From an uncultured Porphyromonadaceae bacterium (GTDB taxonomy: Bacteria; Bacteroidota; Bacteroidia; Bacteroidales; Muribaculaceae): a DNA stretch of 14,535 bases. Below the pieces are notes generated by a model. It did not search any database. It was not told the DNA's origin and saw nothing but the letters and a program-made list of their open reading frames with translations. The position numbers were made by a program, and so were the translations under genes. Location: assembly GCA_900555165.1 (NCBI GenBank), contig USKE01000016.1:1-14535 (forward strand), given 5' to 3'. How positions within the stretch are numbered: position 1 is the first letter of the stretch; every line of letters starts with the position of its first letter. Below are positions 1-14,535 of the stretch, piece by piece.

Positions 1-28
1 CGCCACTGCACCTTAAGTTAATAGCATT

Positions 29-114
29 GGGTCGCTACATGTAGCGACCGCCGCCGAATAAGTCAGTAAAATTCTGAACTGTGACCGGTTAGCGGTCGCT
101 ACATGTAGCGACCC
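29..114. repeat. Inverted pair of identical 20-bp palindromes (BIME/MITE-like element)
   Basis: A perfect 20-bp palindrome, GGTCGCTA-CATG-TAGCGACC, occurs at 30-49 and again at 94-113. With flanking bases the two copies form a perfect 23-bp inverted repeat (29-51 against 92-114) around a 40-bp centre. A further imperfect arm, CATTG at 25-29 and CAATG at 117-121, extends it. The centre can form a small hairpin of its own (TCAG 63-66 with CTGA 74-77). Each palindrome can fold as an 8-bp stem with a CATG tetraloop on either strand. No coding sequence overlaps it. It lies downstream of the seven-gene leftward operon, so it may stabilise or terminate the 3' end of that mRNA. The paired, inverted layout resembles BIME or MITE repeats. 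The structure is seen directly; the role is inference. Confidence 0.75.
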
Positions 115-138
115 TACAATGAATGATGATAATCATGC

Positions 139-186
139 GTCAATAAGGCTAAACAAAGCTTATTGACAATCTTCGGTTTTCCCGAA
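139..186 (-). terminator. Candidate 3'-end hairpins downstream of the TPR gene
   Basis: Two hairpins lie just past the stop codon of the TPR gene. The first is a perfect 9-bp inverted repeat, GTCAATAAG at 139-147 with CTTATTGAC at 159-167 and an 11-nt loop. The second is TTCGG at 172-176 with CCGAA at 182-186 and a 5-nt loop. Neither is followed on the leftward transcript by a clear U-tract, so they are not textbook intrinsic terminators. They are the nearest structures to the operon end and may act as 3' stabilisers or a weak terminator. The rest of 1-203 holds the palindrome pair at 29-114 and no supportable gene. Confidence 0.35.
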
Positions 187-203
187 TTGCGCGTTAGCTT
201 TTT

Positions 204-1814
204 TTATTCAAACAGGTAGCTGTATTTCGAGAGGAGGTCTGTCAGCGCGGTGCCTTTGCGCAGGGGGGCCACGTTGATGCGTCCGGCGTCATATTTCGTC
301 CACTGGTATAGGTCGGCATATCCGCGTTTCAGCGATACATCGGCGCATTCAAGGGCTTTGGCGTTCTCGCCGGCCTGTGCGTAGAGGCATGCGGCCAGGT
401 AGTGCGCCGAACCGTCTGTATCGGGTAGGGCGGTCAGGCGGTCTGCCCAAGCAAGAGCCTCATCCTTGCGCCCCGAGAAGAGCAGGGCGAATCCGCGGTA
501 TGAGGTGAGCGAGGGTGTTTTACCCTCCTGATCCTCGTCGGCTGTAGCGTCGACCAGACGCCTGTAGATCGGCAGAGCATTGGCCGGCTGGTTCATGCCG
601 TCGGCGATGACCCAAGCCTGCATGATGTAGGCGAGATAGTTCTGCGGGTTGTCCATGATCATTTCGCCGAAAATCGTCGATGCCTCGTCATATTTGCCGA
701 GTTGATAGAGGCAGAGAGCCTGCTGTGTGCGGGCCTCGATGTTAGCGGGGTCGGGTTCGAGGGCACGCTCGATGTTGATCATGGCGTTTGCCGGTTTCCC
801 CTCGGCCATCTGCACTTCGGCCACGGTGAGGTAGAAGTAACGGTTGTCGCCGGGCATGCCTATGGCGTGGCGGGCGTTGTCGGCGGCCTCATTATATTTG
901 CAGAGAGCCAGGTAACACTGTGCCAGGTCATTGTATATGCCGGGGTAGCTGTAAAGGTTGTCGTTGATGATTTTCTTGTAATCCGTGACCGCCGGCATGA
1001 AATGCTTGTGAGCCTGGGCTATCTGGGCGCGGATGTAATAGAACATTCCCTGCTCTGGAGCGTGGATCACGGCATTGGTAAGGCCTGACACCACCGAGGG
1101 GTAGTCGATGTTGGCAAGGTTCACCAGCTCCTGGAACGCCTTGGGATTGGAGTCGATGGAGATGGCCATCACCAGGTCGTCGACGGCGCCGGTGTTGTTG
1201 CCGAGCATGCGGCGCACCGACGAGCGGCGCACGTAAATATCGGAATCGGCCGGCATCATCGACACGGCATCGTCCATGTACTGCTGTGCCATGCCGAGGT
1301 TGTTCTCCTGCACGGCCACGCGGGCCAGACCGGTAAGTGCCTCGGCACTGCGGTTGTCCATTGCGCGCATGCGCGTGTAGTCTTTCTTGGCCTCGGCATA
1401 GTTGCCCAGTTCGTATTCGGCGTTGGCTTTCTGGTAGAGGGCCATGAACGATGTCGGGTCATATTCAAGCGCCTTGGCGAAATCGGCGCGAGCCTCGGCG
1501 TATTTGCCGAGTTCCTGGTAGATGTTGCCGCGCAGTTCGTATGCGCTGAAAAGCAGGTCGGTGTCGGCTGCCGGAATATTCCTGATGGCCGCCTCGATGT
1601 CGTTGAGGGCGCGGAGGTACTGGTTGAAACGGTAATATTCGTTGGCGCGACGGAACAGCACCTCGTAATTGTCGGGGTTGGCGGCAAGCTCGGTGTCGTA
1701 AACCTCCATCATGGCCTTGGTAACGGGATTGTCAAGGCCGTCCTGGGCCGGTGCGGCAAGCGATGCCGCCGTCATGGCCGAGGCGATAAATATATGTCTG
1801 AGTCTCATAATCAT
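204..1814 (-). CDS. Exported tetratricopeptide (TPR) repeat protein
   Basis: This is a 536-aa protein of unknown specific function built mostly of TPR repeats, which usually serve as scaffolds for protein-protein contacts. Residues 1-23 look like a cleavable signal peptide: basic MRLR, then an alanine-rich hydrophobic stretch ending APAQ, so it is probably periplasmic or envelope-associated. TPR-type helices recur at about 46-79, 88-121, 122-155, 156-189, 256-286, 290-320, 323-356, 357-390 and 436-500. Typical sequences are ALEYDPTSFMALYQKA and ALEPDPANIEARTQQA. No catalytic motif was seen. Two start codons are possible, at 1814 and at 1808 (MRLRHIF); both keep the signal peptide. It is the last gene of the leftward operon, 25 nt after kdsA. 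Its sequence alone does not show a link to LPS or to tRNA/rRNA modification. Confidence 0.85.
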   Translation of the reverse strand: MIMRLRHIFIASAMTAASLAAPAQDGLDNPVTKAMMEVYDTELAANPDNYEVLFRRANEYYRFNQYLRALNDIEAAIRNIPAADTDLLFSAYELRGNIYQELGKYAEARADFAKALEYDPTSFMALYQKANAEYELGNYAEAKKDYTRMRAMDNRSAEALTGLARVAVQENNLGMAQQYMDDAVSMMPADSDIYVRRSSVRRMLGNNTGAVDDLVMAISIDSNPKAFQELVNLANIDYPSVVSGLTNAVIHAPEQGMFYYIRAQIAQAHKHFMPAVTDYKKIINDNLYSYPGIYNDLAQCYLALCKYNEAADNARHAIGMPGDNRYFYLTVAEVQMAEGKPANAMINIERALEPDPANIEARTQQALCLYQLGKYDEASTIFGEMIMDNPQNYLAYIMQAWVIADGMNQPANALPIYRRLVDATADEDQEGKTPSLTSYRGFALLFSGRKDEALAWADRLTALPDTDGSAHYLAACLYAQAGENAKALECADVSLKRGYADLYQWTKYDAGRINVAPLRKGTALTDLLSKYSYLFE

Positions 1815-1839
1815 TTTGATGAAGTCAGATAAGGAAATG

Positions 1840-2667
1840 TTAAAATGACTTCGATAACTTGTTGACGGTCATGCGCAGCAGCGTAAGCTCTGAGAGCAGG
1901 GTGTCGAGCAGGTCGAGCCTGAGCATGTTCGCGCCGTCAGAAAGCGCTTTGGCGGGTTCGGGATGGGTCTCGATGAACAGGCCGTCGCAACCGGCGGCGA
2001 TGCCGGCGCGGGCCACGGTAGAAATCATGTCGGGACGGCCGCCGGTTACGCCTGTGGCCTGGTTGGGCTGCTGCAGGGAGTGAGTGATGTCGAGTATCAC
2101 CGGGCAGTTGTTGCGTTGCATCTCGGGGATGCCGCGGTAGTCGATGATAAGATCCAGGTAGCCGAACGTGGTGCCGCGCTCGGTTATGGCCACGCGGTCG
2201 TTGCCGGCCTGGCGCACCTTCTCCACGGCATGTTTCATGGCTCCGGGCGAAAGGAACTGCCCCTTCTTTATGTTGACCGTCTTGCCGGTGTGCGCAGCGG
2301 CGATTAGCAGGTCGGTCTGGCGGCAGAGGAATGCCGGAATCTGGAGCATGTCGACGTATTGCGCGGCCATGGCGGCCTCGGGAGCCGAATGGATGTCGGT
2401 CACCACCGGACAGCCGTATGTGTCGCGCACTTTCTTGAGTATCTCAAGGGCCTGCAGGTCACCGATGCCCGTGAACGAGTCGAGGCGCGAGCGGTTGGCC
2501 TTGCGGTACGATCCCTTGAAGACAAAGGGGATGTCGAGACGGTCGGTTGTCTCCTTGATTTTTCCGGCTATGTCAATCGCCATCTGCTCCCCCTCGATCA
2601 CACAAGGGCCTGCGAGCAGGAAGAAGTTGCCGGTTTTCGAGGAGAGGAGATATTCGGGAAATTCCAT
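1840..2667 (-). CDS. kdsA: 3-deoxy-8-phosphooctulonate synthase (KDO-8-phosphate synthase)
   Basis: This cytoplasmic enzyme condenses phosphoenolpyruvate with arabinose 5-phosphate to give KDO-8-phosphate, the precursor of the inner-core sugar KDO of LPS. The 275-aa length fits the family. Visible motifs are AGPCVIE (19-25), FKGSYRKANRSR (50-61; KANRS marks KDO8P rather than DAHP synthase), VTDIH (89-93), DITHS (193-197), FIETHPEP (231-238) and SDGANM (243-248). Cys22 in AGPC, His196, Glu233 and Asp244 match the metal-ligand set of the metal-dependent class; the E. coli-type enzyme has Asn at the Cys position. The start is placed at ATG 2667. An in-frame GTG at 2712 would add 15 residues that do not resemble the family N-terminus and would overlap rsmE. 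It lies 37 nt after rsmE and 25 nt before the TPR gene. Confidence 0.95.
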   Translation of the reverse strand: MEFPEYLLSSKTGNFFLLAGPCVIEGEQMAIDIAGKIKETTDRLDIPFVFKGSYRKANRSRLDSFTGIGDLQALEILKKVRDTYGCPVVTDIHSAPEAAMAAQYVDMLQIPAFLCRQTDLLIAAAHTGKTVNIKKGQFLSPGAMKHAVEKVRQAGNDRVAITERGTTFGYLDLIIDYRGIPEMQRNNCPVILDITHSLQQPNQATGVTGGRPDMISTVARAGIAAGCDGLFIETHPEPAKALSDGANMLRLDLLDTLLSELTLLRMTVNKLSKSF

Positions 2668-2704
2668 AAACAATTCTGTGTTGAACGTGAGTGTGCCCGG
2701 GAGG

Positions 2705-3439
2705 TCAGTCACCGGTGACTGACGGTGCCCCGGCGAGCTGATTCAGTGTATGACATGTCTGGCAGGCCACGAGCGCGGCGGTCTCGGTGCGCAGGCGTGC
2801 GTCGCCGAGCGATACCGGCTGCCATCCGGCATCAAGCGCCAGGGCGATTTCCTCGGGCGAGAAATCCCCCTCAGGTCCGATCAGTATGGCTGTCTCTACG
2901 CCCGGCCGGTAGGCCTGCGACAGCAGGCGCCGCGGGGCGTCTTTCTCGCAGTGGGCTATGAAACGCTGCGGCACCCCGGCTGTCTGGTCGATGAACCTGC
3001 GGAACGGGGTCATCGGCTCAATTGCCGGCACTGTGGCCTTGAGGCTCTGTTTCATGGCCGATACGGCGATTTTGTCGAGACGTTCTGTCTTTAGTTCCTT
3101 GCGTTCCGACCACCGGCACAACACCGGCACGAGGCGGTCGAACCCGATTTCGGTAAGTTTTTCGGTGAGCCATTCCATGCGGTCGAGGTGCTTTGTGGGC
3201 GCTACCGCTATGGTTATGGGCGCGGGCCAGAATACAGGTATCTCCTCAGTTGAGATTATCTCTACCGTGGTATGTTTCTGGTGTGCGCCGGTGATGCGGC
3301 AGGCGTAGCGGTGCCCCTTGCCGTCGGTGACGGTTATCTCGTCACCCTCGGCATGGCGCAGAACCTTCACGCAATGTTGCGACTCCCCCTCGGGGAGAAT
3401 CGGAGTGGCTGCTATGTCGGGCGCATAAAACTGTATCAT
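2705..3439 (-). CDS. rsmE: 16S rRNA (uracil-1498-N3)-methyltransferase RsmE
   Basis: This enzyme methylates N3 of U1498 in 16S rRNA within the small subunit, using S-adenosylmethionine. The 244-aa protein has the usual two parts. An N-terminal PUA-like RNA-binding domain covers about 1-70 (HCVKVLRHAEGDEITVTDG, 22-40). A C-terminal SPOUT knotted methyltransferase domain follows, with the SAM-binding loops IGPEGDFSPEE (187-197) and LGDARLRTETA (211-221). TKHLDRMEWLTEKLTEIG (82-99) is also typical of the family. ATG 3439 is chosen because it begins the family N-terminus MIQFYAP. It overlaps the stop of the upstream transporter as ATGA, which suggests translational coupling. An upstream extension in the same frame reads as antisense-like, Arg-rich sequence inside the transporter gene and is not used. 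Confidence 0.95.
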   Translation of the reverse strand: MIQFYAPDIAATPILPEGESQHCVKVLRHAEGDEITVTDGKGHRYACRITGAHQKHTTVEIISTEEIPVFWPAPITIAVAPTKHLDRMEWLTEKLTEIGFDRLVPVLCRWSERKELKTERLDKIAVSAMKQSLKATVPAIEPMTPFRRFIDQTAGVPQRFIAHCEKDAPRRLLSQAYRPGVETAILIGPEGDFSPEEIALALDAGWQPVSLGDARLRTETAALVACQTCHTLNQLAGAPSVTGD

Positions 3440-4818
3440 ATTCTGTCGGTGGTTACGAAACCGTCGGCGCCCGACTGGGTGTCTTCGGCTTCTTTGATGG
3501 CGGTGTTGGCGGGACGGTCGTTCCTGTCCTTGAAGATTATCCAGAAGAGGATGCCCACCACAAGGGCGTAGGCGGCGAAAATGAACCACGACTCACGCCA
3601 TCCGGCAATCTGCTCAATCGCTACCTGCGATTTCTGCGCGAGGTCGGCATCGGTCGGCATAGCGGGCACGAGTCTGTTCACCACGCATGTGCCGGCGATC
3701 CAGGTGCCGAGCGAGGCACCGATGCCGTTGGTCATGATCATGAAAAGACCCTGGGCCGATGAGCGCATAGACGGGTCGGTCTCCTTGTCGACGAACAGGC
3801 CGCCCGAGACGTTGAAGAAATCGAACGCCACGCCGTAGACGATGCACGACAGTATCAGGAACAGCAGCCCCGAGCCGGTATCGCCCACGCCGAAGAATCC
3901 GAATCGGAACACCCAGGCGAACATGGCCATGAGCATCACGCCCTTTATTCCGAATTTCTTGAGGCAGAACGGAATCAGCAGTATGCAAAGGGCCTCGCTG
4001 GCCTGTGAGATTGCGGTGAGGGCGGTGGCGTTACGGGCACCCCAGGTGTCGGCAAATGCGGCCACGTCACGGAAGGTGGAGATGAACGTGGTGCCGTAAG
4101 AGTTTGTGATCTGCAACGACACACCCAACAGCATGCTGAAGATGAAGAATATGGCCATCTTTTTCTGCTTGAAGAGCTTGAAGGCGTTGAGACCGAGTGA
4201 TTCATAGAGCGAGCCGCCACTGGCCGGATTGACCGGACATGCCGGCAGCGTGAGGGCGTAGGCCATGAGGATGAGCGAGATCACGCCCGAGGTGAAGAAC
4301 TGCATGTAGGTGTTCTGGAACCCGGTGAAGTTCACGAACAGCTCGGCGCAGATGAAACCCACGGTGCCGAGAACGCGGATCGGGGGGAAATCTTTGATGG
4401 TATCGAGTCCGGCCTTTGTGAGGGCGTTGAAGGCCACTGAGTTGCTGAGACCGATGGTGGGCATGAAGAAAGCCACCGACAGCGTGTAGAACAGGAACAG
4501 GGTGGTGAAATCGACATTCTGCCCGGCTGTCATGCAGTGGTATCCGGCCAGTATCATGAACAGGCCGGCCAGCAGATGGCACAGGCTGAGCATCTTCTGG
4601 GCGGGCACCCAGCGGTCGGCGATGATGCCCACCAGGGCCGGCATGACCAGGGAAACGAGTCCCTGCACGGTATAGAACCAGAAAATCTCGGTCATCAGGC
4701 CGACACTCGACAGGTATATGCCCATCGAGACCAGATACGAGCCCCAGACGGCGAACTCAAGGAAATTCATCACCGCCAGGCGTCCTTTCAGGCTGTTTTT
4801 TGATAAGGTGGCACTCAT
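3436..4818 (-). CDS. NupG-family nucleoside:H+ symporter (MFS)
   Basis: This is an inner-membrane transporter of 460 aa with about twelve hydrophobic segments, in two bundles separated by a polar loop near 192-220. It resembles the nucleoside:proton symporter (NHS/NupG-XapB) family of the major facilitator superfamily. Supporting motifs are the N-terminal NFLEFAVWGSYLVSMGIYL (18-36), the motif-A-like loop GIIADRWVPAQK (64-75), FPPIRVLGTVGF (144-155), and the family block FFNVSGGLFVDKE (334-346) followed by MRSSAQGLF (351-359). The likely substrate is purine or pyrimidine nucleosides, but substrate choice cannot be read from the sequence. The C-terminus after residue 430 is a polar cytosolic tail. 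It starts 41 nt after the nuclease gene and its stop overlaps the rsmE start (ATGA), so it is an internal operon gene. Confidence 0.85.
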   Translation of the reverse strand: MSATLSKNSLKGRLAVMNFLEFAVWGSYLVSMGIYLSSVGLMTEIFWFYTVQGLVSLVMPALVGIIADRWVPAQKMLSLCHLLAGLFMILAGYHCMTAGQNVDFTTLFLFYTLSVAFFMPTIGLSNSVAFNALTKAGLDTIKDFPPIRVLGTVGFICAELFVNFTGFQNTYMQFFTSGVISLILMAYALTLPACPVNPASGGSLYESLGLNAFKLFKQKKMAIFFIFSMLLGVSLQITNSYGTTFISTFRDVAAFADTWGARNATALTAISQASEALCILLIPFCLKKFGIKGVMLMAMFAWVFRFGFFGVGDTGSGLLFLILSCIVYGVAFDFFNVSGGLFVDKETDPSMRSSAQGLFMIMTNGIGASLGTWIAGTCVVNRLVPAMPTDADLAQKSQVAIEQIAGWRESWFIFAAYALVVGILFWIIFKDRNDRPANTAIKEAEDTQSGADGFVTTDRI

Positions 4819-4859
4819 GATTGAATGTTGAAAGTCTTTATGGTATTATGTCAGGTTTG

Positions 4860-5501
4860 TTATTTCCGGTTTTTCTTGCTGTTGATTATGGCCTGAACCT
4901 TGGCGGCCTCCTCATACTCCTCGTTTTCGATATGGCGGGCGAGCGTGCGCTCAAGCTCTTCGAGAGCCATGTTCTCGAGCCGGGGGCCCGGAGCGGCGAC
5001 GTCGGTGTCGTCATCGGCGGGTAGGTCGTCGGTAAGCGCGTCGCCGCTCTCCTTCACCTCCATGATGAAACCTGTCTCGGCGAGAATGCGGCGTGTGGTG
5101 AAAATCGGCGAGCCGGTGCGCATGGCTATCGCTATGGCGTCTGATGTGCGCGCGTCGAGAACAACTTCCTGGCCGGCAGGGTCGACGAACGTCAGCTCTG
5201 ACGAGAATATGCCATCCTCAAATTTGTGGATAAACACCTCTTTGAGCACTATGCCGAATGCCTGCGACATGGCGGCGAAAAGGTCGTGGGTCATCGGCCT
5301 GGGGGGCACCACACCCTCCATCTTGATGGCTATCGACTGTGCCTCGGCGGCGCCTACCACCACGGGTATGCGGTAGGGGCCGTCGGTCTGCGCCAGAATC
5401 AGGGCATAGGCGCCCGACTGTATCTGGCTGTATGATATACCGAGCACGCGCAGGCGCACCCGGCGGTTGTCGCTGTATAAGTTGTCGCTGTTGTTTTCCA
5501 T
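4860..5501 (-). CDS. Bifunctional nuclease family protein (DUF151) with C-terminal UVR motif
   Basis: The 213-aa protein has a DUF151/BFN domain at about 14-150. Characteristic stretches are YRIPVVVGAAEAQSIAIKMEG (in part, 43-63), RPMTHDLF (68-75) and LDARTSDAIAIAMRTGSPIF (115-134). A polar, acidic linker (about 151-175) leads to a UvrB/UvrC (UVR) motif at 178-211 (LEELERTL, then EYEEAAKVQAIINSKK). Some family members cut both DNA and RNA, and UVR motifs mediate contacts in Uvr-type and Clp-type proteins; the role here is not known. The start is ATG 5501. An in-frame TTG at 5540 would add 13 residues unlike the family. It follows mnmA by 44 nt and precedes the transporter by 41 nt. Confidence 0.88.
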   Translation of the reverse strand: MENNSDNLYSDNRRVRLRVLGISYSQIQSGAYALILAQTDGPYRIPVVVGAAEAQSIAIKMEGVVPPRPMTHDLFAAMSQAFGIVLKEVFIHKFEDGIFSSELTFVDPAGQEVVLDARTSDAIAIAMRTGSPIFTTRRILAETGFIMEVKESGDALTDDLPADDDTDVAAPGPRLENMALEELERTLARHIENEEYEEAAKVQAIINSKKNRK

Positions 5502-5545
5502 TGTGAAATCTTCTTTATAATTAACGTGGCAACCGGTCAATTATT

Positions 5546-6640
5546 TCACAACTGGAGGGGAGGCTGTTCGATGGGACGCCCGGTGATTATGCCCGAGCCG
5601 TAGCAGAGTTTCGAGTCGGGCGAATAGATTACGGCGAACTGCCCCGGAGCTATGCCCTGTATCGGGTCATCTGACTCTATCACATATTCGCCGGGGGCCA
5701 GACGTGTGAGCCGCGCGCCGGTGAACACCGGGGTGTGGCGGTTCTTGAAGGTCACGGGAACCGAGGTGCAGCTGTCGCCCCAGGGGTCGCCCGAGATGAA
5801 CTGTGTCTCGGCCAGGTGCAGTATGCGGCCATACTGCTTGTCGGTGTCGTAGCCGCGCGATACGTATATGGCGTTGTCGTGGATGTTCTTGCGCACCACA
5901 TACCAGGGACCACCGCTGAGACCCAGACCTTTGCGCTGGCCTATGGTGTGGAACCAGTAGCCCCGGTGCTCGCCGATCTTGCGGCCGGTCTCTATCTCGA
6001 TAATCGGGCCGGGGCGCTCGCCCAGATGACGGCGGATGAAGTCGTTGTAGTTTATCTTGCCCAGGAAACAGATTCCCTGGCTGTCTTTCCGGTAGGCGTT
6101 TGGCATGCGGGTCTCCACGGCAATCTCGCGTACGCGGCTCTTGGGCAGCTCGCCCAGGGGGAAGATGAGGTGGCTGAGCTGGTCATAGCTTATGCGGGCC
6201 AGGAAGTCGGTCTGGTCCTTTACGGGGTCGACCGCCGTGGCCAGATATACCTTTCCGTCGATGGTGCGCGTCGAGGCGTAATGCCCTGTCGCTGTCATGT
6301 CGAACTCGTGCCCCCAGCGCTGTTCGAAATATCCGAACTTGATCATCTTGTTGCACATGATGTCGGGGTTGGGGGTGAGGCCGGCACGCACGGTCGTGAG
6401 GGCATACTCCATGACGTTGTCCCAGTATTCCTGATGCAGTGACACCACATCGAGCGGCAGATTGTAACGGCGCGCGATGAGCCGGCACATCTCGATGTCC
6501 TCCTCGGCCGAGCAGTCGCCCTCGTCGGTGTCGAGCCCGATGCGTATGTAGAACAGATGCAGGTCATGCCCCTGCTCCACGAGTCTGTGGGCGGCCACAG
6601 CGCTGTCGACGCCGCCCGATATGAGCATTGCTATCTTCAT
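5546..6640 (-). CDS. mnmA: tRNA-specific 2-thiouridylase MnmA
   Basis: MnmA activates U34 of the tRNAs for Lys, Glu and Gln with ATP and inserts sulfur delivered by a persulfide relay, giving 2-thiouridine. The 364-aa length is normal. The N-terminal PP-loop is [10 protein letters not shown] (8-17). The catalytic pair is Cys96 in [19 protein letters not shown] (87-105) and Cys191 in [14 protein letters not shown] (185-198). The central region holds TATGHYA (116-122) and [14 protein letters not shown] (231-244); the C-terminal barrel ends with [10 protein letters not shown] (331-340). ATG 6640 starts at the PP-loop strand [10 protein letters not shown] and overlaps the upstream stop as ATGA. 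Bacteroidetes genomes often carry more than one MnmA paralogue, so this may not be the only copy. Confidence 0.95.
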
Positions 6641-7563
6641 TGCGCCGACTTTTTGAATTTCTCGGCCACGATGTAGAACGCGTTCAGCAGCCGGTCGATG
6701 TCGAAACTCTTCGACAGTATCTGATGCTTGCCGTTGAGATAATATATCGTCGGGGTCTGGCGCATGTCGTACAGCTCGTCGATGTCGGGGCAGGCGCCCA
6801 CAATCCACTTGTCGCTGTAATCTTTTGCCTGCTCCACCCATTCGGGATTTGAGAGGCCCGGGTAGATGCTGATGACCTTCATGTGGCCGTTGTCTATAAG
6901 CCAGTCGAGGCTGATGTCGGCCTGCAGACGTATGCGCGCCAGGTTACATTCATCACACGTGGGGTCGTTGACGAACAGCAGTATGTAGGGGCCTTCGGCG
7001 ATTTCCGAAAGGCACCCGGTCTGCCCGTCGGGGGTGGCATACGTGAAGTCGGGGGCAGTCATGCCTACCTGCGAGCCGCCGAGCGAACGGGCCTGATAGT
7101 CGAAACGGGCGCGTTCGGCTTTGGAAATCTTTTTATTAGCGGCCGCCGCACGGGCGAACGGCAGGTAGCAGTCGTCGCAACGTATCTGGGCGGTGTCGGC
7201 GTAGAACGCCCCCTCGGCCATCTCGGCCAGCGCCAGCAGGTTCTTCGGATTCTTCGAGACCTGCTTTATGAGACGGTCGATAGACTCGCGAGTATTCTCG
7301 GCTGTGGCGAAAGGCATGATTGCGGCATAGTCGTTGAATGCCGCCTGCATCTTCGATTTCGACGAGAATGCGGTCTTGAAGTCGCAGAAATCCCAGAAAT
7401 GTTCCATCAGGAAGTTGGAGCGCTCGGTAATGCCCTGCATGCTTTCGGGCACGATGGGGTAGGGGAAATATGTGTGACGTCCGTCGGCCGACTGTGCCCT
7501 GGCTGCGCCGGTGATGGCGAGCGCACAGGCAAGCGTGGCGATTATTCTGGCGGTTATTCTCAT
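6637..7563 (-). CDS. Exported DUF5106/thioredoxin-like protein
   Basis: This is a 308-aa secreted protein with a signal peptide at 1-23 (MRITARI, then a hydrophobic stretch ending ARAQ). Residues about 30-165 fit the DUF5106 N-terminal domain found in many Bacteroidales thioredoxin-like proteins. Residues 168-305 form a thioredoxin/TlpA-like domain: [15 protein letters not shown] (167-181), [13 protein letters not shown] (194-206) with a CxxC at Cys203/Cys206, and the cis-proline loop [10 protein letters not shown] (269-278). A second CxxC (Cys129/Cys132, RCDDCYLPF) lies in the DUF5106 part. It probably acts as a periplasmic or envelope redox protein; the partner is unknown. It is the first gene of the seven-gene operon, with a good -7 box upstream, and its stop overlaps the mnmA start. 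Confidence 0.88.
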
Positions 7564-7609
7564 CTTAAGGATGTGGATGTATATCGTTGTCGGTATATTC
7601 TTATTTGTG

Positions 7610-7617
7610 CAAAATTA
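7610..7617 (-). promoter_or_regulatory. Bacteroidetes-type -7 box for the seven-gene leftward operon
   Basis: On the minus strand this reads TAATTTTG, a full match to the Bacteroidetes sigma-70 (SigABfr) -7 consensus TAnnTTTG. The -33 element is weak (TTAA at about the right distance). Transcription would begin near 7603 and leave a leader of about 40 nt before ATG 7563. It is the only strong promoter-like sequence ahead of the operon. Confidence 0.6.
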
Positions 7618-7640
7618 GCAATAATCCGCGATAAACGTGT

Positions 7641-7648
7641 TAACTTTG
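7641..7648 (+). promoter_or_regulatory. Bacteroidetes-type -7 box for the ABC-F gene
   Basis: The sequence TAACTTTG fully matches the -7 consensus TAnnTTTG. A weak -33 candidate (TTAG, 7615-7618) sits 22 nt upstream. Transcription would start near 7653-7656, after the ATG at 7651. This favours ATG 7672 as the real start codon, with AAGG at 7666-7669 as a weak ribosome-binding sequence. Confidence 0.6.
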
Positions 7649-7671
7649 CCATGAATTTAGACTATAAGGTT

Positions 7672-9450
<1,779 letters not shown>

Positions 9451-10053
9451 TCAGTCGCGCCACACGGTGGCGCCGAGGGCTTTTATCCCCGGGTCGGCGA
9501 GCGTGGCCGCGGTGGGGTTTACAAGCACCGGCGTGTGCGCGGCCATGAGGAGGGGGAGATCGTCGGGGTGGTCACTGAGGGCCACGTCAATGCCTGCAAT
9601 ACCCGTAACAGCCTGTACACGACGCAGTTTTTCGGCGCCGCGCGTTTCGGTATAATCCTTGAAACGGCGCGACACTGGGCGCTCTGTGGCTATGACGTAG
9701 AGGCAGTCGAGCCGCCGTGCAAGCGGCATCACATATTCGGCGGAAGCCGCCGTGGCGAGTACCCACGGCTTTCCGGTCACATACCCCATGACACGCGGGT
9801 TCAGATACTGCATTATCTCGTCGGCGAGGGCGTCATAGTCTTCCGGCGTGAGCGTGCTGTCGGCTATTTTCATCAGTTCCCATTTCAGTCGCCGGTGGCT
9901 GACCATATTGAACCTCCGTGCCGCCCCCCAGAATCCATATCGCGCCAGGTCGGCGATACGGCGCCGTTTAAGTATGCGCCGACGCAGGAAACCGGCGAAA
10001 ATCCTGAATGTGTTGCGGGTTACTAGAGTCCCGTCGAGGTCGACGGCAATCAT
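9451..10053 (-). CDS. HAD-superfamily phosphatase (HAD-IB-like)
   Basis: This 200-aa cytoplasmic enzyme is a haloacid-dehalogenase-type phosphatase. Motif I is DLDGT with nucleophile Asp5 and acid/base Asp7; motif II is in LATAAS (99-104); motif III Lys is K142 in GAEKLRRV (139-146); motif IV is SDHPDDLPLL (160-169). A helical cap at about 15-90, rich in Arg, resembles the phosphoserine phosphatase (IB) subgroup. The substrate cannot be read directly. It overlaps the stop of the phosphoribosyltransferase gene as ATGA and is the third gene of the cassette, so a phosphoribosylated product is a reasonable substrate guess. Its stop codon directly abuts the ABC-F stop with no base between them. 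Confidence 0.88.
   Translation of the reverse strand: MIAVDLDGTLVTRNTFRIFAGFLRRRILKRRRIADLARYGFWGAARRFNMVSHRRLKWELMKIADSTLTPEDYDALADEIMQYLNPRVMGYVTGKPWVLATAASAEYVMPLARRLDCLYVIATERPVSRRFKDYTETRGAEKLRRVQAVTGIAGIDVALSDHPDDLPLLMAAHTPVLVNPTAATLADPGIKALGATVWRD
9457..9485 (+). terminator. Candidate terminator of the ABC-F gene, lying inside the HAD coding sequence
   Basis: Six bases after the ABC-F stop there is a perfect hairpin, GCGCCAC (9457-9463) and GTGGCGC (9467-9473), with a 3-nt ACG loop. After seven more bases comes TTTT at 9481-9484. The hairpin is encoded within the last codons of the convergent HAD gene. On the leftward transcript the same stem has no close U-tract. The U-tract is short and offset, so the call is tentative. 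Confidence 0.45.
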
Positions 10054-10643
10054 CTGTTCTTGTAGTCTTTTGACCAGGGGAATCTCACAAGTGTGCCGTT
10101 GTTGTAGGTATAATAGTCGGCCATGACAAGCGGCGAGTCTGTGGTGACTGTTATGGCCATGACCTTGACGCGTGCTTTGGGATTGGCACGTAGCACCGCG
10201 TCTATCACACCGCGGGCTGTGGTGCCGCTGTCGACGGCATCATCAATCAGCAATACCTCAGGCACGCCGTCGCGCAGGCGGTCGGCAATTTCTGTCTCCA
10301 GGTCGAGGTGCGGCACGCGGGGCTCGCGTAGGTGTTGCTTCATTTTCAGCAATGTGGCCTCGGTACGGCGCATGCTGTTCAGAATCCACAGCGGCACGTG
10401 CGGGAGCATCCTCACCAGTGCTCCCTTCTTGTATTTTGTCGAGGGGCGGTGCAGGTCTACCTCGCCGAAAAACTCAACCAATTCGGCCGGATATGATTTC
10501 AGGAAAGAGCGGGCCACGAAACTGCCCCCTTTTTTCACGGCAAGTATCACCCTGAACGGGGCGGGATGGTCATTGACTATCTGCTTGGCCAGAACGCCGG
10601 TCTGCCAGTCGAGGCCGGGTATGTTTAGGGTGACTATGTTCAT
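10050..10643 (-). CDS. PRPP-dependent phosphoribosyltransferase (type I PRTase fold)
   Basis: The 197-aa protein carries the PRPP-binding loop VLLIDDAVDSGTT (130-142), the hallmark of type I phosphoribosyltransferases. A pyrophosphate-binding loop AVKKGGSF (35-42) and a late FPWSKDY segment (188-194) also fit. Between the loops is an unusual stretch at about 58-118, rich in Lys/Arg/His (RPSTKYKKGALVRMLPH, then LLKMKQHLREPRVPHL), unlike the compact nucleobase salvage enzymes. The acceptor is therefore unknown and need not be a base. ATG 10643 overlaps the stop of the glycosyltransferase gene and its own stop overlaps the HAD start, both as ATGA. A 44-residue upstream extension is shadow reading of the glycosyltransferase gene. 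Coupling to a GT and a phosphatase suggests a role in glycan ribosylation (inference). Confidence 0.88.
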   Translation of the reverse strand: MNIVTLNIPGLDWQTGVLAKQIVNDHPAPFRVILAVKKGGSFVARSFLKSYPAELVEFFGEVDLHRPSTKYKKGALVRMLPHVPLWILNSMRRTEATLLKMKQHLREPRVPHLDLETEIADRLRDGVPEVLLIDDAVDSGTTARGVIDAVLRANPKARVKVMAITVTTDSPLVMADYYTYNNGTLVRFPWSKDYKNR

Positions 10644-11599
10644 TTGTAATGTCGTGCTAATAATTTGATAAATCGCGTGCCAAACAGCGATGCCGCGGCT
10701 CCGAGGCGGTTCTTGACCCGTACGCCCGGGGCAAAGAGTTCGGCGATGCGTTCCTGCCTGATTACGGCCAGGCACCGCGATTCCCTGGCGGCGTCGACAC
10801 AGTCGTTGGCGTACATCATCACAAGCATGTTGTAGTGTGCGCTGAAACGGCGGTCGCGTGCGGCACGTTCAAGGTCGGTGCCCCGGTAATGCGCGAGAAT
10901 CTCGTCGGTCACATCGAGCACGTCAAAGCGTCCCGGGCTTATCGTGTTTATGAAACTCTGGGGATTCCGGCGGTAAAAATACAGCTTTTCCGGCAGATAT
11001 GCAATTCTTGAGGCTCTTTCAAAAAGCCGGTAGAAGATATCGAGATCCTCATACCATCTCCCCTCGCGGTATCGCGGCCCGTCGGGGAAGAATATGTCAC
11101 GCCGGTATAGAGAGCCCCAGGCGGCATTTAGCCTGATTGACTGGTGGAGGCCGATTTTTATGGCATTGCGCGGCGCGATGATTTGCGGAAGAGCAGGCAT
11201 CGGTACGGGTGGTTTTGTCTCGGAATACTCGAAACCGCCCACCACAATGTCGGCGCCGGTGTCGCGGGCTGTCTCCAGATACCGGCGCAGGGCGTTGGGT
11301 TGCAGGGCGTCGTCAGCGTCGAGGCATGTGATCCATTCGCCGCGGGCATGTGCCAGTCCATGGTTGCGGGCCGACGACAGGCCGCCGTTGGGTTTGTCGA
11401 GCAGTATAAAACGGCTGTCGTCACCGACACGCAGACGGCAGATGCCGGCCGAGTCGTCGGTCGAGCCGTCGTTTACCAGCAATGCCTCGAAGTTGCCGTA
11501 TTCCTGGTCTTTCAGTGAGTCGAGCATGTCGGCAAGCCACGGTGCCGCATTGTATATGGGCACTATGACCGAAACCAGTGGATTTGTTTTCGCAGGCAT
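10640..11599 (-). CDS. Family 2 (GT-A) glycosyltransferase
   Basis: This 319-aa protein is an inverting GT2-type glycosyltransferase that uses a nucleotide-sugar donor. The GT-A core has VSVIVPIYNAAPWL (9-22), the nucleotide-binding VNDGSTDDS (42-50), KPNGGLSSARNHG (69-81) and the metal-binding CLDADD (92-97). The likely catalytic-base region is RWYEDLDIFYRLF (181-193). There are no clear membrane spans; the C-terminal end (about 285-319) is basic and amphipathic and may touch the membrane. The family makes O-antigen, capsule and other surface glycans; donor and acceptor are unknown. It is the first gene of the GT2-PRT-HAD cassette. An AT-rich upstream stretch (11600-11668) may hold its promoter, but no clear TAnnTTTG box was found. 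Confidence 0.9.
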   Translation of the reverse strand: MPAKTNPLVSVIVPIYNAAPWLADMLDSLKDQEYGNFEALLVNDGSTDDSAGICRLRVGDDSRFILLDKPNGGLSSARNHGLAHARGEWITCLDADDALQPNALRRYLETARDTGADIVVGGFEYSETKPPVPMPALPQIIAPRNAIKIGLHQSIRLNAAWGSLYRRDIFFPDGPRYREGRWYEDLDIFYRLFERASRIAYLPEKLYFYRRNPQSFINTISPGRFDVLDVTDEILAHYRGTDLERAARDRRFSAHYNMLVMMYANDCVDAARESRCLAVIRQERIAELFAPGVRVKNRLGAAASLFGTRFIKLLARHYK

Positions 11600-11613
11600 T
11601 ACAGATGTCGGTA

Positions 11614-11671
11614 TTTTACATATATAACGTCACCCGCGTTAAAATAGTATAAGTAGCGGGATGATGTAAAA
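11614..11671. promoter_or_regulatory. Nested inverted repeats in the upstream region of the glycosyltransferase gene
   Basis: An 8-bp perfect inverted repeat, TTTTACAT at 11614-11621 with ATGTAAAA at 11664-11671, encloses a second one, CCCGC at 11633-11637 with GCGGG at 11656-11660, around an AT-rich core. It lies 15-72 bp before the GT2 start. It could be an operator, a structured leader or part of the adjoining terminator, whose T-tract it overlaps. Function is not established. Confidence 0.35.
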
Positions 11672-11712
11672 CAGACAGTGCCGTGTCAGAGATTGACACA
11701 GCGCTGTCCGTC
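11667..11712 (-). terminator. Intrinsic terminator of the Omp28 operon
   Basis: A long inverted repeat has arms at 11674-11688 and 11694-11708 with a 5-nt loop. On the leftward transcript the 15-bp stem contains one C-A mismatch and one G-U pair. It can be extended outward by several pairs (G-U, C-G, A-U, G-U). It is followed by TGTTTTA, a short U-tract. It lies about 30 nt after the stop of the Omp28 gene, as expected for its terminator. Confidence 0.7.
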
Positions 11713-11741
11713 ATTATATTATCTTATTAAGAGGGGCGGGT

Positions 11742-13706
11742 TCAGTCGATGGCCACGACTTTGGCGGTCGAGCCCTGGCGGCGGATGTAGATGCCGGCGG
11801 CGGGTTCGCTGACACGTATGCCCTGCAGGTTGTAGTATTCAACCGGAGCGTCGGCATCGGCGTCGGCGTCGGTGAACACATTGTCGATGGCGGCCAGGTC
11901 ACCGGCCTTAACCATGCAGGCGTTCTCGACGATGCCGGTCTTTCTGTTGAGCAGGTAGACGATGGCATTCAGGTTGATCCAGTGCTCGATTTTGCTGTCG
12001 GCGGTGAACTTGAGCTCATAGGTGTACTCGTATTCCTGCCCGGCAACCACTGATTCGGGGATGGTGCCCAGCAGGCCGCGTGCGCTGTTGATCTGGCGGG
12101 CCACGTCGTTGTAGATGGTCTCTACCTTGGCGGGTTTGTCGCCCCAGCCGGGAAGGCTTGTGCCGGGGTAGTTGCTGTTCTGCTCGTAGGGGCCGACATT
12201 GTCTTCGGTAACGGCGAATGCCAGGATATAGTCTTCCGACGCCTTGTCGTTGTCATACGAGAATGCAGACTTGGTGTTGAAGATCACGCCGTTCTTCTTT
12301 TCGTTGAACATGGCGGTGGCGGTGACTGTGGCCGGTGCCGGATATGTCTTGAACAGCTCGATGTCATTCACGCAGTCGTCGGTAGGATAGATGTAAGCCA
12401 TTGTCGAGCGGTTCAGCACTGCCGAGGGGAATCCGCTGGAGTAGGCCTGTGTGACCGGGAAGTACGAATCCACGGCCATGGGATCCTGGTAATGGACTGC
12501 CACCGGAATCACGCTGCCGTCGGTGTATTTCTCACGCAGGGCCTCCATGGTCACGATACCCTGGGGGCAGAAGCCGCACCAGGTACCGGTGAACTCCTCG
12601 ATCACTACATTGCGCTGGTAGCCCTTGCCTGTAGGCAGTACCTGGATTGCACCGGCGATGGTCTTGTTCTCGTCTTTGTTGGGGTTTCCGTTCACTTTGG
12701 TGATGGTTACGGTAACAGGCACCCTCTGGACATCAGGGGTAGAGCAGGTGAGGTCTGAGAGTGTTGCTACGGCTGATTTGCTGTAGCTGAGCGGCTGGTC
12801 AAGATCCAGGTGTACTGTTTCGGCAGGGGCTGTGCCGACTGTCACCTCACAGTCGATGCTGTTGATGTCGTTGGCCGCGTTGTTGGTAAAGAGGAAATAG
12901 AAGTCAAACGGGTCGTTCTCATACACCGAAGGCTGCACGTCATATTCATCCAGTGAGACCTTATCGGTGGGGAGGTTGTCGCCGCTTATCACCGTGCCCA
13001 GGCATAAGAAACCGAGCCGATCGGCAAAGTTGTTGAACGACCAGCTTGGATTAGGTACATCATCGGTGGCAACCGGTCGGAAACCAATCCAGCCACCTGT
13101 CGCGTCATTGCCGTGATCTCTGCCGTCAATGATGACAGTGGCGTCCTGGGGAGATGAGAGATAATAATAAAAGCCGATATAAAGCGGTTTGTTTGCCACT
13201 ATCTCGTATGGGGTGTCGAACTGGAACGACACGAGCGTGCCCCCCGCCTCGGGCAGATCGACCGTCTGGGTATAGAAAGGCTCGAAGTTCTGCAGGTCGT
13301 ATGCAAGGAACATCGTCGCTTTCTTGATGGTATTGACACTTGAAGTCTCTGTCGAGGCATTCATGTTGATACCGGTATAGAAGAACATTCCAGTGAGCTT
13401 GTTTCCGGCGAATTCGTTCGTGAGTGTTCGAGTGAACTGGAACGCCTGAGCCATCTGCATACCTGTCTCCTGATCCTGGAATGCTATCGCCTGGTAAGGG
13501 TCATAGGCGGGGGAGTAGGTCATCGACATAGTCTGGCCGGCGGCGCGTTTTGCCATCGGGACTTTGGTATCGGCCGGTGTGAAGGGCACCGCGGTGCCGA
13601 AAGATGCACCCGGAGATGTGGTCAGCATCCGGGGGGCTTTCTGCAGTGCCGACGATGCGCCGAGAGCGACTATGCAGGCCAGCAGGGTGAGTAATATTTT
13701 TTTCAT
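11742..13706 (-). CDS. Omp28-related, thioredoxin-like secreted protein with T9SS-like C-terminus
   Basis: This is a 654-aa exported protein. Residues 1-20 form a signal peptide (MKKILLTLLA, then hydrophobic). Residues about 60-360 are beta-rich. An Omp28-like domain with a thioredoxin-like active site follows at about 365-605: VVIEEFTGTWCGFCPQG (367-383), with CxxC at Cys377/Cys380, and VAVHYQDPM (402-410). The Asp-Ala run TDADADADA (612-620) links to a C-terminal tail at 622-654 (VEYYNLQGIRVSEPAAGIYI, then KVVAID) that resembles the type IX secretion sorting domain. It is probably moved across the outer membrane or held at the cell surface. The redox role is suggested by WCGFC but not proven. 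The gene starts 26 nt after the upstream small secreted protein gene, so they form an operon, and a terminator follows. Confidence 0.85.
   Translation of the reverse strand: MKKILLTLLACIVALGASSALQKAPRMLTTSPGASFGTAVPFTPADTKVPMAKRAAGQTMSMTYSPAYDPYQAIAFQDQETGMQMAQAFQFTRTLTNEFAGNKLTGMFFYTGINMNASTETSSVNTIKKATMFLAYDLQNFEPFYTQTVDLPEAGGTLVSFQFDTPYEIVANKPLYIGFYYYLSSPQDATVIIDGRDHGNDATGGWIGFRPVATDDVPNPSWSFNNFADRLGFLCLGTVISGDNLPTDKVSLDEYDVQPSVYENDPFDFYFLFTNNAANDINSIDCEVTVGTAPAETVHLDLDQPLSYSKSAVATLSDLTCSTPDVQRVPVTVTITKVNGNPNKDENKTIAGAIQVLPTGKGYQRNVVIEEFTGTWCGFCPQGIVTMEALREKYTDGSVIPVAVHYQDPMAVDSYFPVTQAYSSGFPSAVLNRSTMAYIYPTDDCVNDIELFKTYPAPATVTATAMFNEKKNGVIFNTKSAFSYDNDKASEDYILAFAVTEDNVGPYEQNSNYPGTSLPGWGDKPAKVETIYNDVARQINSARGLLGTIPESVVAGQEYEYTYELKFTADSKIEHWINLNAIVYLLNRKTGIVENACMVKAGDLAAIDNVFTDADADADAPVEYYNLQGIRVSEPAAGIYIRRQGSTAKVVAID
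11848..11871. repeat. In-frame hexanucleotide repeat (four units)
   Basis: Four tandem units of 6 bp (GCGTCG, GCATCG, GCGTCG, GCGTCG) encode the Asp-Ala run in the linker before the C-terminal sorting tail of the Omp28-type protein. Changes in unit number would keep the frame and only change linker length. Confidence 0.7.
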
Positions 13707-13732
13707 ATCTGGTTGTATGGGTGGAGATGTTA

Positions 13733-14419
13733 TTATTTTATGATAATCTTGCCGGTGTTGGCGCCGAGGGTGTAGATGTAGATGCCCGGGGCGAGGGCCG
13801 ATGTGCTGACAGTGCCGTTGCCCTCGCAGAGAACAGAGAGAACGCGTGTGCCGGCGACTGAATAGAGGTCAAGCGTCGTGGCGTCTGCTACGGACCAGGC
13901 GATGCCGCCGGTTACGGGCTGTACTGATTCGGCAACTCCTCCGATTGTCTCGAGTGCCGAGGCTCCGGGGCCCATCACAAGGGTGAACTCGACGGGGTCG
14001 CCTCCGTCGTCGGTGGCGGTGAATCGGGTGATTACGTCAGGTACCTCGTCACCCTCGTATTCTGTTTCCATGAACTCGAAATCGAGGCTCAGTGGCTGCC
14101 CCTGGCGCAGGGTAAGATCCTCTTTTGTTACGGATTCACCCTTGGAACAATTGCTACCGCAGCACATCTGGATGCTCTGGCCCGAGGTGCAGGTAGCTGT
14201 CACGGTGACTGTGTTGGTGAAGAAGTCGCTGACGATACTCAGGTCGGGTTTCATCATGATGTCCCACACACCGCGCTCGAACTCCTCGGCGGAGTATTCG
14301 GTGAATTTTACGGTCGAGCCGGGAATGATTTCCTGGTCGCCGAGCATGAATTTCAGGTTCACGGCCTGGGCGCCCAGTGTCATGGCGGCGCAGGCCATCA
14401 AGAGGTAAAGTTTCTTCAT
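13733..14419 (-). CDS. Small secreted protein with Cys cluster and T9SS C-terminal sorting domain
   Basis: I do not recognise a named function for this 228-aa protein. Residues 1-19 are a signal peptide (MKKLYLLMACAAMTLGAQA). Residues about 20-150 are a beta-rich domain with a cysteine cluster at 77-91 (C-x8-CC-x3-C, within CTSGQSIQMCCGSNCSKG). A linker leads to a clear T9SS type A-like sorting domain at about 183-228 (LDLYSVAGTRVLSV, LAPGIYIYTL, KIIIK). It is therefore predicted to cross the outer membrane by type IX secretion and lose or anchor its tail. It is the first complete gene of the two-gene operon with the Omp28/thioredoxin-like protein. No strong promoter box was found in the 62 nt upstream, so it may also be cotranscribed with the gene at the right edge. 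Confidence 0.8.
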   Translation of the reverse strand: MKKLYLLMACAAMTLGAQAVNLKFMLGDQEIIPGSTVKFTEYSAEEFERGVWDIMMKPDLSIVSDFFTNTVTVTATCTSGQSIQMCCGSNCSKGESVTKEDLTLRQGQPLSLDFEFMETEYEGDEVPDVITRFTATDDGGDPVEFTLVMGPGASALETIGGVAESVQPVTGGIAWSVADATTLDLYSVAGTRVLSVLCEGNGTVSTSALAPGIYIYTLGANTGKIIIK

Positions 14420-14481
14420 GTTCTATCTGATTTGTTGTTGTAAGTTCAATTAGAATCTTGTTGCGGGAACCGGGCCGATGA

Positions 14482-14535
14482 TTATTCGGCGGTGGCCGGG
14501 GTCACATGCACGCGGGTGGGCTGGGCCACGCCGCC
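14482..14535 (-). CDS. C-terminal end of a further leftward gene (partial, cut by window edge)
   Basis: Reading leftward from the right edge, one frame stays open for 17 codons, ending with RVHVTPATAE and a TAA stop at 14484-14482. The GC-rich third positions match neighbouring genes. It would sit 62 nt upstream of the small secreted protein gene on the same strand. No function can be assigned from this fragment. One other minus frame also stays open for a similar length, so the call is tentative. Confidence 0.4.
   Translation of the reverse strand, partial: GGVAQPTRVHVTPATAE

Follow-up and report, generated by a model that had tools for sequence, protein, structure and literature searches.

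Three overlapping genes in DNA from an uncultured Porphyromonadaceae bacterium (Muribaculaceae in the GTDB lineage; assembly GCA_900555165.1, contig USKE01000016.1) probably act together in the cytoplasm to make or extend a ribofuranose-containing glycan. The stretch analysed, referred to here as the window, comprises positions 1 to 14,535 of the contig, and the trio encodes a GT2 glycosyltransferase, a phosphoribosyltransferase (PRT) of the type that uses phosphoribosyl pyrophosphate (PRPP), and a phosphatase of the HAD superfamily. In the proposed pathway, the PRT would phosphoribosylate the glycan, the HAD would dephosphorylate the product, and the GT2 would work on the same chain. This reading draws on gene linkage, gene fusions, intact PRPP and HAD motifs, changed purine-contact positions in the PRT, and the glycan loci in which several relatives are found.

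The cassette and its conservation

All three genes lie on the minus strand. The first encodes the GT2 (10640..11599; 319 amino acids; Pfam PF00535, Glycos_transf_2, E 2.3e-36), and the second the PRT (10050..10643; Pribosyltran, E 7.3e-7, with 29.1 bits against a Pfam cut-off of 26.3), whose 197 amino acids are counted from an ATG; the list of open reading frames (ORFs) also holds a longer, GTG-start form from 10775. The third gene encodes the HAD (9451..10053; 200 amino acids; PF12710, E 2.3e-14). The stop codon of the GT2 gene and the start codon of the PRT gene share an ATGA at 10640..10643, as do the PRT stop and the HAD start at 10050..10053 (tcat on the plus strand in both cases). A sequence-only reading of this DNA had proposed a cassette joined by two such overlaps, and the ORFs, the sequence itself and the Pfam matches bear it out. 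In the window, as in most related loci, PRT and HAD are encoded separately; ten relatives have them fused.

To gauge conservation, 84,980 species were scanned with one genome each, yielding 325 pattern matches and 178 confirmed PRT relatives, the best 80 of which were kept. These loci were picked by their PRT alone and their neighbours were recounted in six frames, superseding an earlier ORF-based count (a HAD match in 77 of 81 sources, window included). By the recount, a HAD lies directly 3' of the PRT in 77 of the 80 homologous loci. As for the remaining three, the HAD is adjacent but convergent in L039, the order is PRT-GT2-HAD in L075, and the contig of L002 ends just past the PRT; the convergent copy and the L075 copy, one gene away, are the only additional HADs of the same profile in the 80 loci.

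A similar picture emerges closer to home. Of the loci fetched, the one whose PRT is most similar belongs to a Muribaculaceae genome (L001; 62%), and 198 genomes from the family of that genome were sampled. At a PRT threshold of E 1e-15, 46 of them carry the gene, with one match each, and a separate search with the HAD profile showed that the next gene after the PRT is a HAD in 43 of the 46 carriers (that of G569 being cut by the contig end). Contig ends account for two of the three misses: in G537 the PRT stops at base 55 of its contig, and in G520 121 bases separate the PRT from the contig's end. Strong HAD matches (E 2.7e-34 or better) numbered 44, of which 42 adjoin a PRT and two (G520 and G519) sit at contig starts; among 24 weaker matches, one adjoins a PRT (G569, where the contig ends within the HAD) and the other 23 do not. 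As a control, 44 HGPRT genes of the same genomes were checked, and none has one of these HADs closer than 1 kb. Distances among the three proteins were also correlated over 53 loci (PRT-HAD 0.31, PRT-GT2 0.58, HAD-GT2 0.48), values reached by none of 500 permutations; this is weak evidence, since the relatedness of the species was ignored. Taken as a whole, PRT and HAD form a nearly inseparable pair, and the GT2-PRT-HAD arrangement occurs far more often than chance would allow.

The pair is usually joined by a GT2. One of the same type as in the window stands directly 5' of the PRT in 55 of the 80 loci; among the 25 without it there, four have contigs that break off on that side. In a Pfam scan, PF00535 was found in 55 of 70 same-strand upstream neighbours, with ten of the 80 loci giving no such neighbour. 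Downstream, no family occurs in more than three of 35 same-strand neighbours (one of which, in L075, is the HAD itself), and the cassette therefore seems to end with the HAD.

Gene fusions join the same partners. The fused PRT-HAD homologues that the sequence-only reading had thought worth seeking exist in both domain orders: three proteins are PRT-HAD fusions (P0056, which is the query protein itself from locus L057, P0057 and P0061) and seven are HAD-PRT fusions (P0065, P0068, P0079, P0080, P0086, P0090 and P0091). The PRT part of P0068 falls below the Pfam cut-off, and P0090 and P0091 were assigned from a full-length fusion-profile match and precomputed Pfam data only. GT2-PRT fusions are found besides (P0062 and P0064). 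With the two domains found in either order, fusion probably took place more than once.

PRT-HAD pairs have also been found in several polysaccharide loci, as that reading had anticipated. The loci scanned for context were chosen as distant or informative-looking and are not a random sample. For example, the pair is accompanied in Dysgonomonas (L062; Bacteroidales) by an NAD epimerase and three glycosyltransferases (one GT2 and two GT4s), with a protein lacking Pfam matches in between, and in Sulfurovum (L071) by an RgpF/GT4 protein and a GT2, while a polysaccharide pyruvyltransferase stands behind the HAD in Telmatospirillum siberiense 26-4b1 (L073). On a Hyphomicrobiales plasmid (L102), with ORFs called in this analysis, a protein that by eye looks multi-spanning is followed by the PRT, the HAD, a protein that by eye resembles the Telmatospirillum pyruvyltransferase, an acyltransferase-GT4 protein, a GT4 and a flippase-family Polysacc_synt_3 protein. 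Finally, an Opitutae locus (L075) shows a Wzy_C match just below the cut-off together with a GT2, L033 is flanked by GT2s on both sides, and L060 has one GT2.

Outside its core group, the PRT family looks rare. A phylum-wide draw of 395 genomes at E 1e-20 returned the centre genome only, with at most eight candidates scored per genome, such that some may have been missed. Four loci (L026, L041, L057 and L078) come from metagenome-assembled genomes labelled Staphylococcus, Pseudoflavonifractor, Clostridiales or Lachnospiraceae and carry Bacteroidales-like cassettes; these labels may be unreliable. A phage or plasmid origin was considered and rejected, in that no match was found in phages, the trio had no DNA match in plasmids, and the Hyphomicrobiales plasmid supplied the single plasmid relative. 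A PRT relative with 33% identity (L104, 8001-8495) was seen on a contig from a viral collection, which may be a misassigned bacterial contig.

Motifs of the phosphoribosyltransferase and the phosphatase

The PRT has a 6-oxopurine-PRT-like fold with a mostly helical stretch at about residues 63-124. Its PRPP-binding motif, D134-D-A-V-D-S-G-T-T142 (10218..10244, minus strand), retains D134, D135, D138 and G140 in all 160 aligned homologues, and a C-terminal signature, R187-F-P-W190 (10074..10085, minus strand), is conserved at R187, P189 and W190 in all 160 and at F188 in 150. Within the helical stretch, R92 is found in 160 of the 160 and E95 in 157.

The positions that would contact a purine are a different matter. 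Position 167 is threonine or serine in every one of the 160 homologues and lysine in the solved structures 1vdm, 4z1o and 7kl6, where we take this lysine to be the contact to the purine O6; position 168 is lysine in one homologue of 160. Position 185 is leucine, isoleucine or methionine in all 160 and tryptophan in the same three structures, the aromatic residue there presumably stacking on the base. Altogether, the presumed purine-contact positions are altered in at least 159 of the 160 sequences. The type I PRT fold and the PRPP motif of 6-oxopurine PRTs are thus present, and the presumed purine-contact lysine and aromatic residue are replaced. Furthermore, a separate HGPRT scores above the cut-off in 44 of the 46 PRT carriers, and the other two possess a split HGPRT. 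With its contact positions changed and an HGPRT already present in its carriers, the PRT looks unlike a salvage enzyme. Five relatives (P0036, P0045, P0046, P0047 and P0091) bear names such as hypoxanthine phosphoribosyltransferase or "hypoxanthine phosphoribosyltransferase/phosphoserine phosphatase"; such names on PRT relatives are probably misannotations.

The HAD, for its part, possesses the full motif set of PF12710 phosphatases (DxD, T/S, K, DD). Motif I, D5-L-D7-G-T9 (10027..10041, minus strand), has D5 and D7 invariant among the 57 HADs of alignment A4, and motif IV, S160-D161-H162-P-D164-D165 (9559..9576, minus strand), which reads TDHxDD in most relatives, has D161, H162 and D165 invariant. 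In the same alignment, K142 is invariant, and T101 and D164 are each conserved in at least 90%.

Proposed function and competing explanations

In the mechanism proposed here, the PRT would transfer ribose-5-phosphate from PRPP onto a hydroxyl of a glycan acceptor, and the HAD would strip the 5-phosphate, leaving ribofuranose. The GT2 would act on the same chain, adding either the sugar that accepts the ribose or the next residue onto it, the latter as does the partner transferase domain of Bcs3, Cj1432 and KrkA. The chemistry, the acceptor, the anomer and the carrier glycan are what we infer; the gene linkage, fusions, motifs and several glycan loci are what was observed, and together they support the sequence-only reading's suggestion of PRPP-dependent glycan phosphoribosylation followed by 5-dephosphorylation. 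Precedent comes from the gPRT-PRP enzymes, which, in the parts of the reports cited here, transfer ribose-5-phosphate from PRPP to a glycan before a HAD domain removes the 5-phosphate (PMC11127046, PMC10299916, PMC12096443, PMC12887879, PMC11231755). As the known PRPP-dependent ribofuranose transferases are described as inverting in the cited part of one of these (PMC11127046), the PRT would be expected to transfer with inversion and form a beta-linkage. The split arrangement seems workable because Bcs3, according to the portion of the work cited, stays active with its domains split in trans (PMC10299916). Since the partner transferase of Bcs3, Cj1432 and KrkA acts on ribose, analogy suggests that the GT2 of the trio extends from ribose as well.

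Several observations weigh against a ribofuranose glycan. One of the three family carriers that miss the HAD is a genuine exception (G409, also L103), with a PRT at 7368-7949 and no HAD nearby. Of the loci uncut on the 5' side, 21 of 76 lack a GT2 directly upstream. Many PRT relatives stand outside any obvious polysaccharide locus, no such locus is visible among the ORFs of L045 and L053 (Olleya marilimosa CAM030), and a Pfam scan of the window's ORFs revealed none that was recognisable around the cassette. In view of this setting, a surface glycan is a putative product for the window's copy. Moreover, the best fold and profile matches of the PRT, among those listed, are 6-oxopurine PRTs and PyrR, i.e., nucleobase or regulatory PRTs, and a nucleoside H+ symporter gene (3436-4818, minus strand; PF03825, E 6.9e-103) lies about 4.6 kb from the trio, on the far side of an opposite-strand ABC-F gene. 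In G409, the gene after the PRT encodes another GT2, which by eye resembles polyprenol-phosphate mannosyltransferases.

The fold and profile matches and the symporter gene invite the idea of a nucleobase salvage or regulatory role for the PRT, linked in nucleotide turnover to a HAD acting as nucleotidase, and the hypoxanthine phosphoribosyltransferase names that some databases give to relatives would agree with it. We consider this very improbable. The purine-contact positions are replaced as described above, the carriers own separate HGPRT genes, GT2 fusions and glycan loci occur, and an ORF search of the 80 related loci (E 1e-20, covering up to 10 kb per side, with many contigs shorter) turned up no copy of the symporter, for which reason it probably has no bearing on the trio's function. 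Nucleobase salvage was accordingly rejected as the principal explanation on the residue census, the separate HGPRT genes and the fusions. The symporter does call for a correction of the earlier statement that no nucleotide salvage gene is nearby. The grouping of the PRT with salvage or regulatory enzymes, which the sequence-only reading named among the findings that would count against it, holds for the nearest folds, but the changed purine-contact positions and the carriers' own HGPRT speak the other way.

An acceptor other than a glycan has more to recommend it. In butirosin biosynthesis, a separate PRT and phosphatase, BtrL and BtrP, O-ribosylate the amino sugar neamine in an antibiotic pathway. 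By analogy, PRT and HAD might place ribose on a small soluble molecule, or on a metabolite resembling a cofactor, that the GT2 also decorates, as the standalone cassettes outside polysaccharide loci and the small PRT, with the fold of enzymes that act on small acceptors, would allow. This is unlikely, albeit the least so of the alternatives, given that a flippase-family protein or several glycosyltransferases are encoded around several relatives, that no upstream neighbour is commoner than GT2 (55 of the 70 scanned), and that no typical natural-product family appears among the neighbour families listed (25 of 32; 25 of 54). Alternatively, PRT and HAD could build a lipid-linked donor, polyprenyl-phosphate-ribofuranose, for periplasmic transfer; UbiA-type systems, in the part of the report cited, go through the same two steps, transfer from PRPP and removal of the 5-phosphate by a HAD domain (PMC11127046). 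The odds of this are slight. The PRT has a PRT fold with no UbiA match, GT2-PRT fusions exist, and neither a flippase nor a GT-C family is among the Pfam matches of the trio and the ten other window ORFs scanned; on the absence of UbiA, flippase and GT-C families there, the route was rejected. A last possibility, a degenerate or moonlighting remnant lacking a glycan function, would fit the trio's patchy distribution (46 of 198 genomes) and is hardly credible, considering the invariant catalytic motifs and the maintenance of the pair across distantly related bacteria.

Genomic surroundings and comparison with known systems

The cassette is followed by a convergent gene for an ABC-F-type ATPase (6883-9450, plus strand). 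A close ABC-F match is also seen near the cassette in five related loci (L016, L023, L025, L061 and L077), and the slot beside this gene may therefore be old. Upstream of the trio, a short intergenic stretch contains a terminator-like hairpin (11680-11702), beyond which lies a gene whose match to Omp28 is weak (29.6 bits) and falls short of the Pfam cut-off. About 7 kb from the trio, a gene at 1840-2712 (minus strand) encodes a DAHP-synthetase-family protein; Pfam gives the family only, and the protein looks like KdsA, of Kdo (3-deoxy-D-manno-octulosonic acid) synthesis. The ORF search that looked for the symporter found no such gene near the PRT in any of the 80 related loci. Further Pfam matches point to proteins with an RNA methyltransferase domain, a bifunctional-nuclease domain and DUF5106 and to an MnmA-like tRNA enzyme, and the window genes outside the trio look like housekeeping genes. 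Rfam and tRNA scans of the window returned no match.

To our knowledge, PRPP-based addition of ribofuranose is confined to one soluble family (gPRT/CriT with PRP) and the UbiA-type lipid phosphoribose synthases. Somewhat less confidently than the function itself, we propose that a purine-salvage-type PRT has been recruited as a glycan O-phosphoribosyltransferase, making the trio's PRT a second, independently evolved family of soluble PRPP-dependent ribofuranosyltransferases, with the contiguous DD kept, the base-contact residues changed, a helical acceptor module in the place of the mobile loop of base PRTs, and a dedicated HAD and GT2. If so, the PRT would be the founding member of a new glycosyltransferase family and represent a third route of ribofuranose addition, derived from a base-salvage fold, in gut Bacteroidales. 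Ribofuranose glycans would be predicted for roughly one in four of the genomes sampled from the L001 family (46 of 198), and also for scattered Flavobacteriia, Campylobacterota, Alphaproteobacteria and others. The signature of R92, E95, DDAVDSG and RFPW beside a TDHxDD HAD could serve as a finder for candidate ribofuranose glycans in genomes, and the proposal suggests that some proteins called hypoxanthine phosphoribosyltransferase are misnamed. A non-exhaustive search of the literature found no clear description of a ribose-containing glycan in gut Bacteroidales, nor a paper evidently on this PRT family, although the survey of Kelly et al. 2022 may already list relatives.

The gPRT-PRP enzymes (those of Klebsiella O4/O7, Bcs3 CriT-CrpP of H. 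influenzae b, Cj1432 and KrkA) work in glycan biosynthesis, as the trio probably does, and like it combine a PRPP-using PRT-type domain, a HAD phosphatase and a further transferase, and a HAD with intact catalytic motifs is coupled to the PRT in 77 of the 80 loci, as in CriT-CrpP. The differences are considerable. In gPRT-PRP enzymes both domains share one polypeptide, whereas the window encodes them separately. The trio's PRT has about 190 residues, against about 340 to 445 for Cj1432C and CriT in the descriptions available to us, and CriT, in the description cited, replaces the contiguous DD by D680 and E818 from two loops (PMC10299916), whereas the trio's PRT has DD134-135 contiguous in all 160 homologues. 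No CriT/CrpP structure, Bcs3 (8a0m) included, is among the top 50 fold matches or the PDB matches listed.

The UbiA-type polyprenyl phosphoribose synthase with a PRP domain (C. youngae ORF15) likewise uses PRPP as donor and a HAD 5-dephosphorylation, as set out in the part of the report cited (PMC11127046), but is an integral membrane enzyme acting on polyprenyl phosphate. The nearest solved relatives are the 6-oxopurine PRTs (archaeal HGXPRT 4z1o/5bqp, the purine PRT 1vdm and H. pylori XGHPRT 7kl6), which have their fold in common with the trio's PRT. Unlike them, the latter carries threonine or serine and leucine, isoleucine or methionine in place of the lysine and tryptophan, the helical stretch with R92 and E95, and a near-constant HAD partner. 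The sequence-only reading had seen in the trio the two activities of the gPRT-PRP enzymes, split into separate proteins. The pairing of PRT and HAD agrees with this, although the likeness goes no further than analogy. With its contiguous DD retained and 6-oxopurine PRTs as its closest solved relatives, the family appears to have evolved independently and, judged by its sequence, is more likely to be a parallel solution to glycan ribosylation than a split gPRT.

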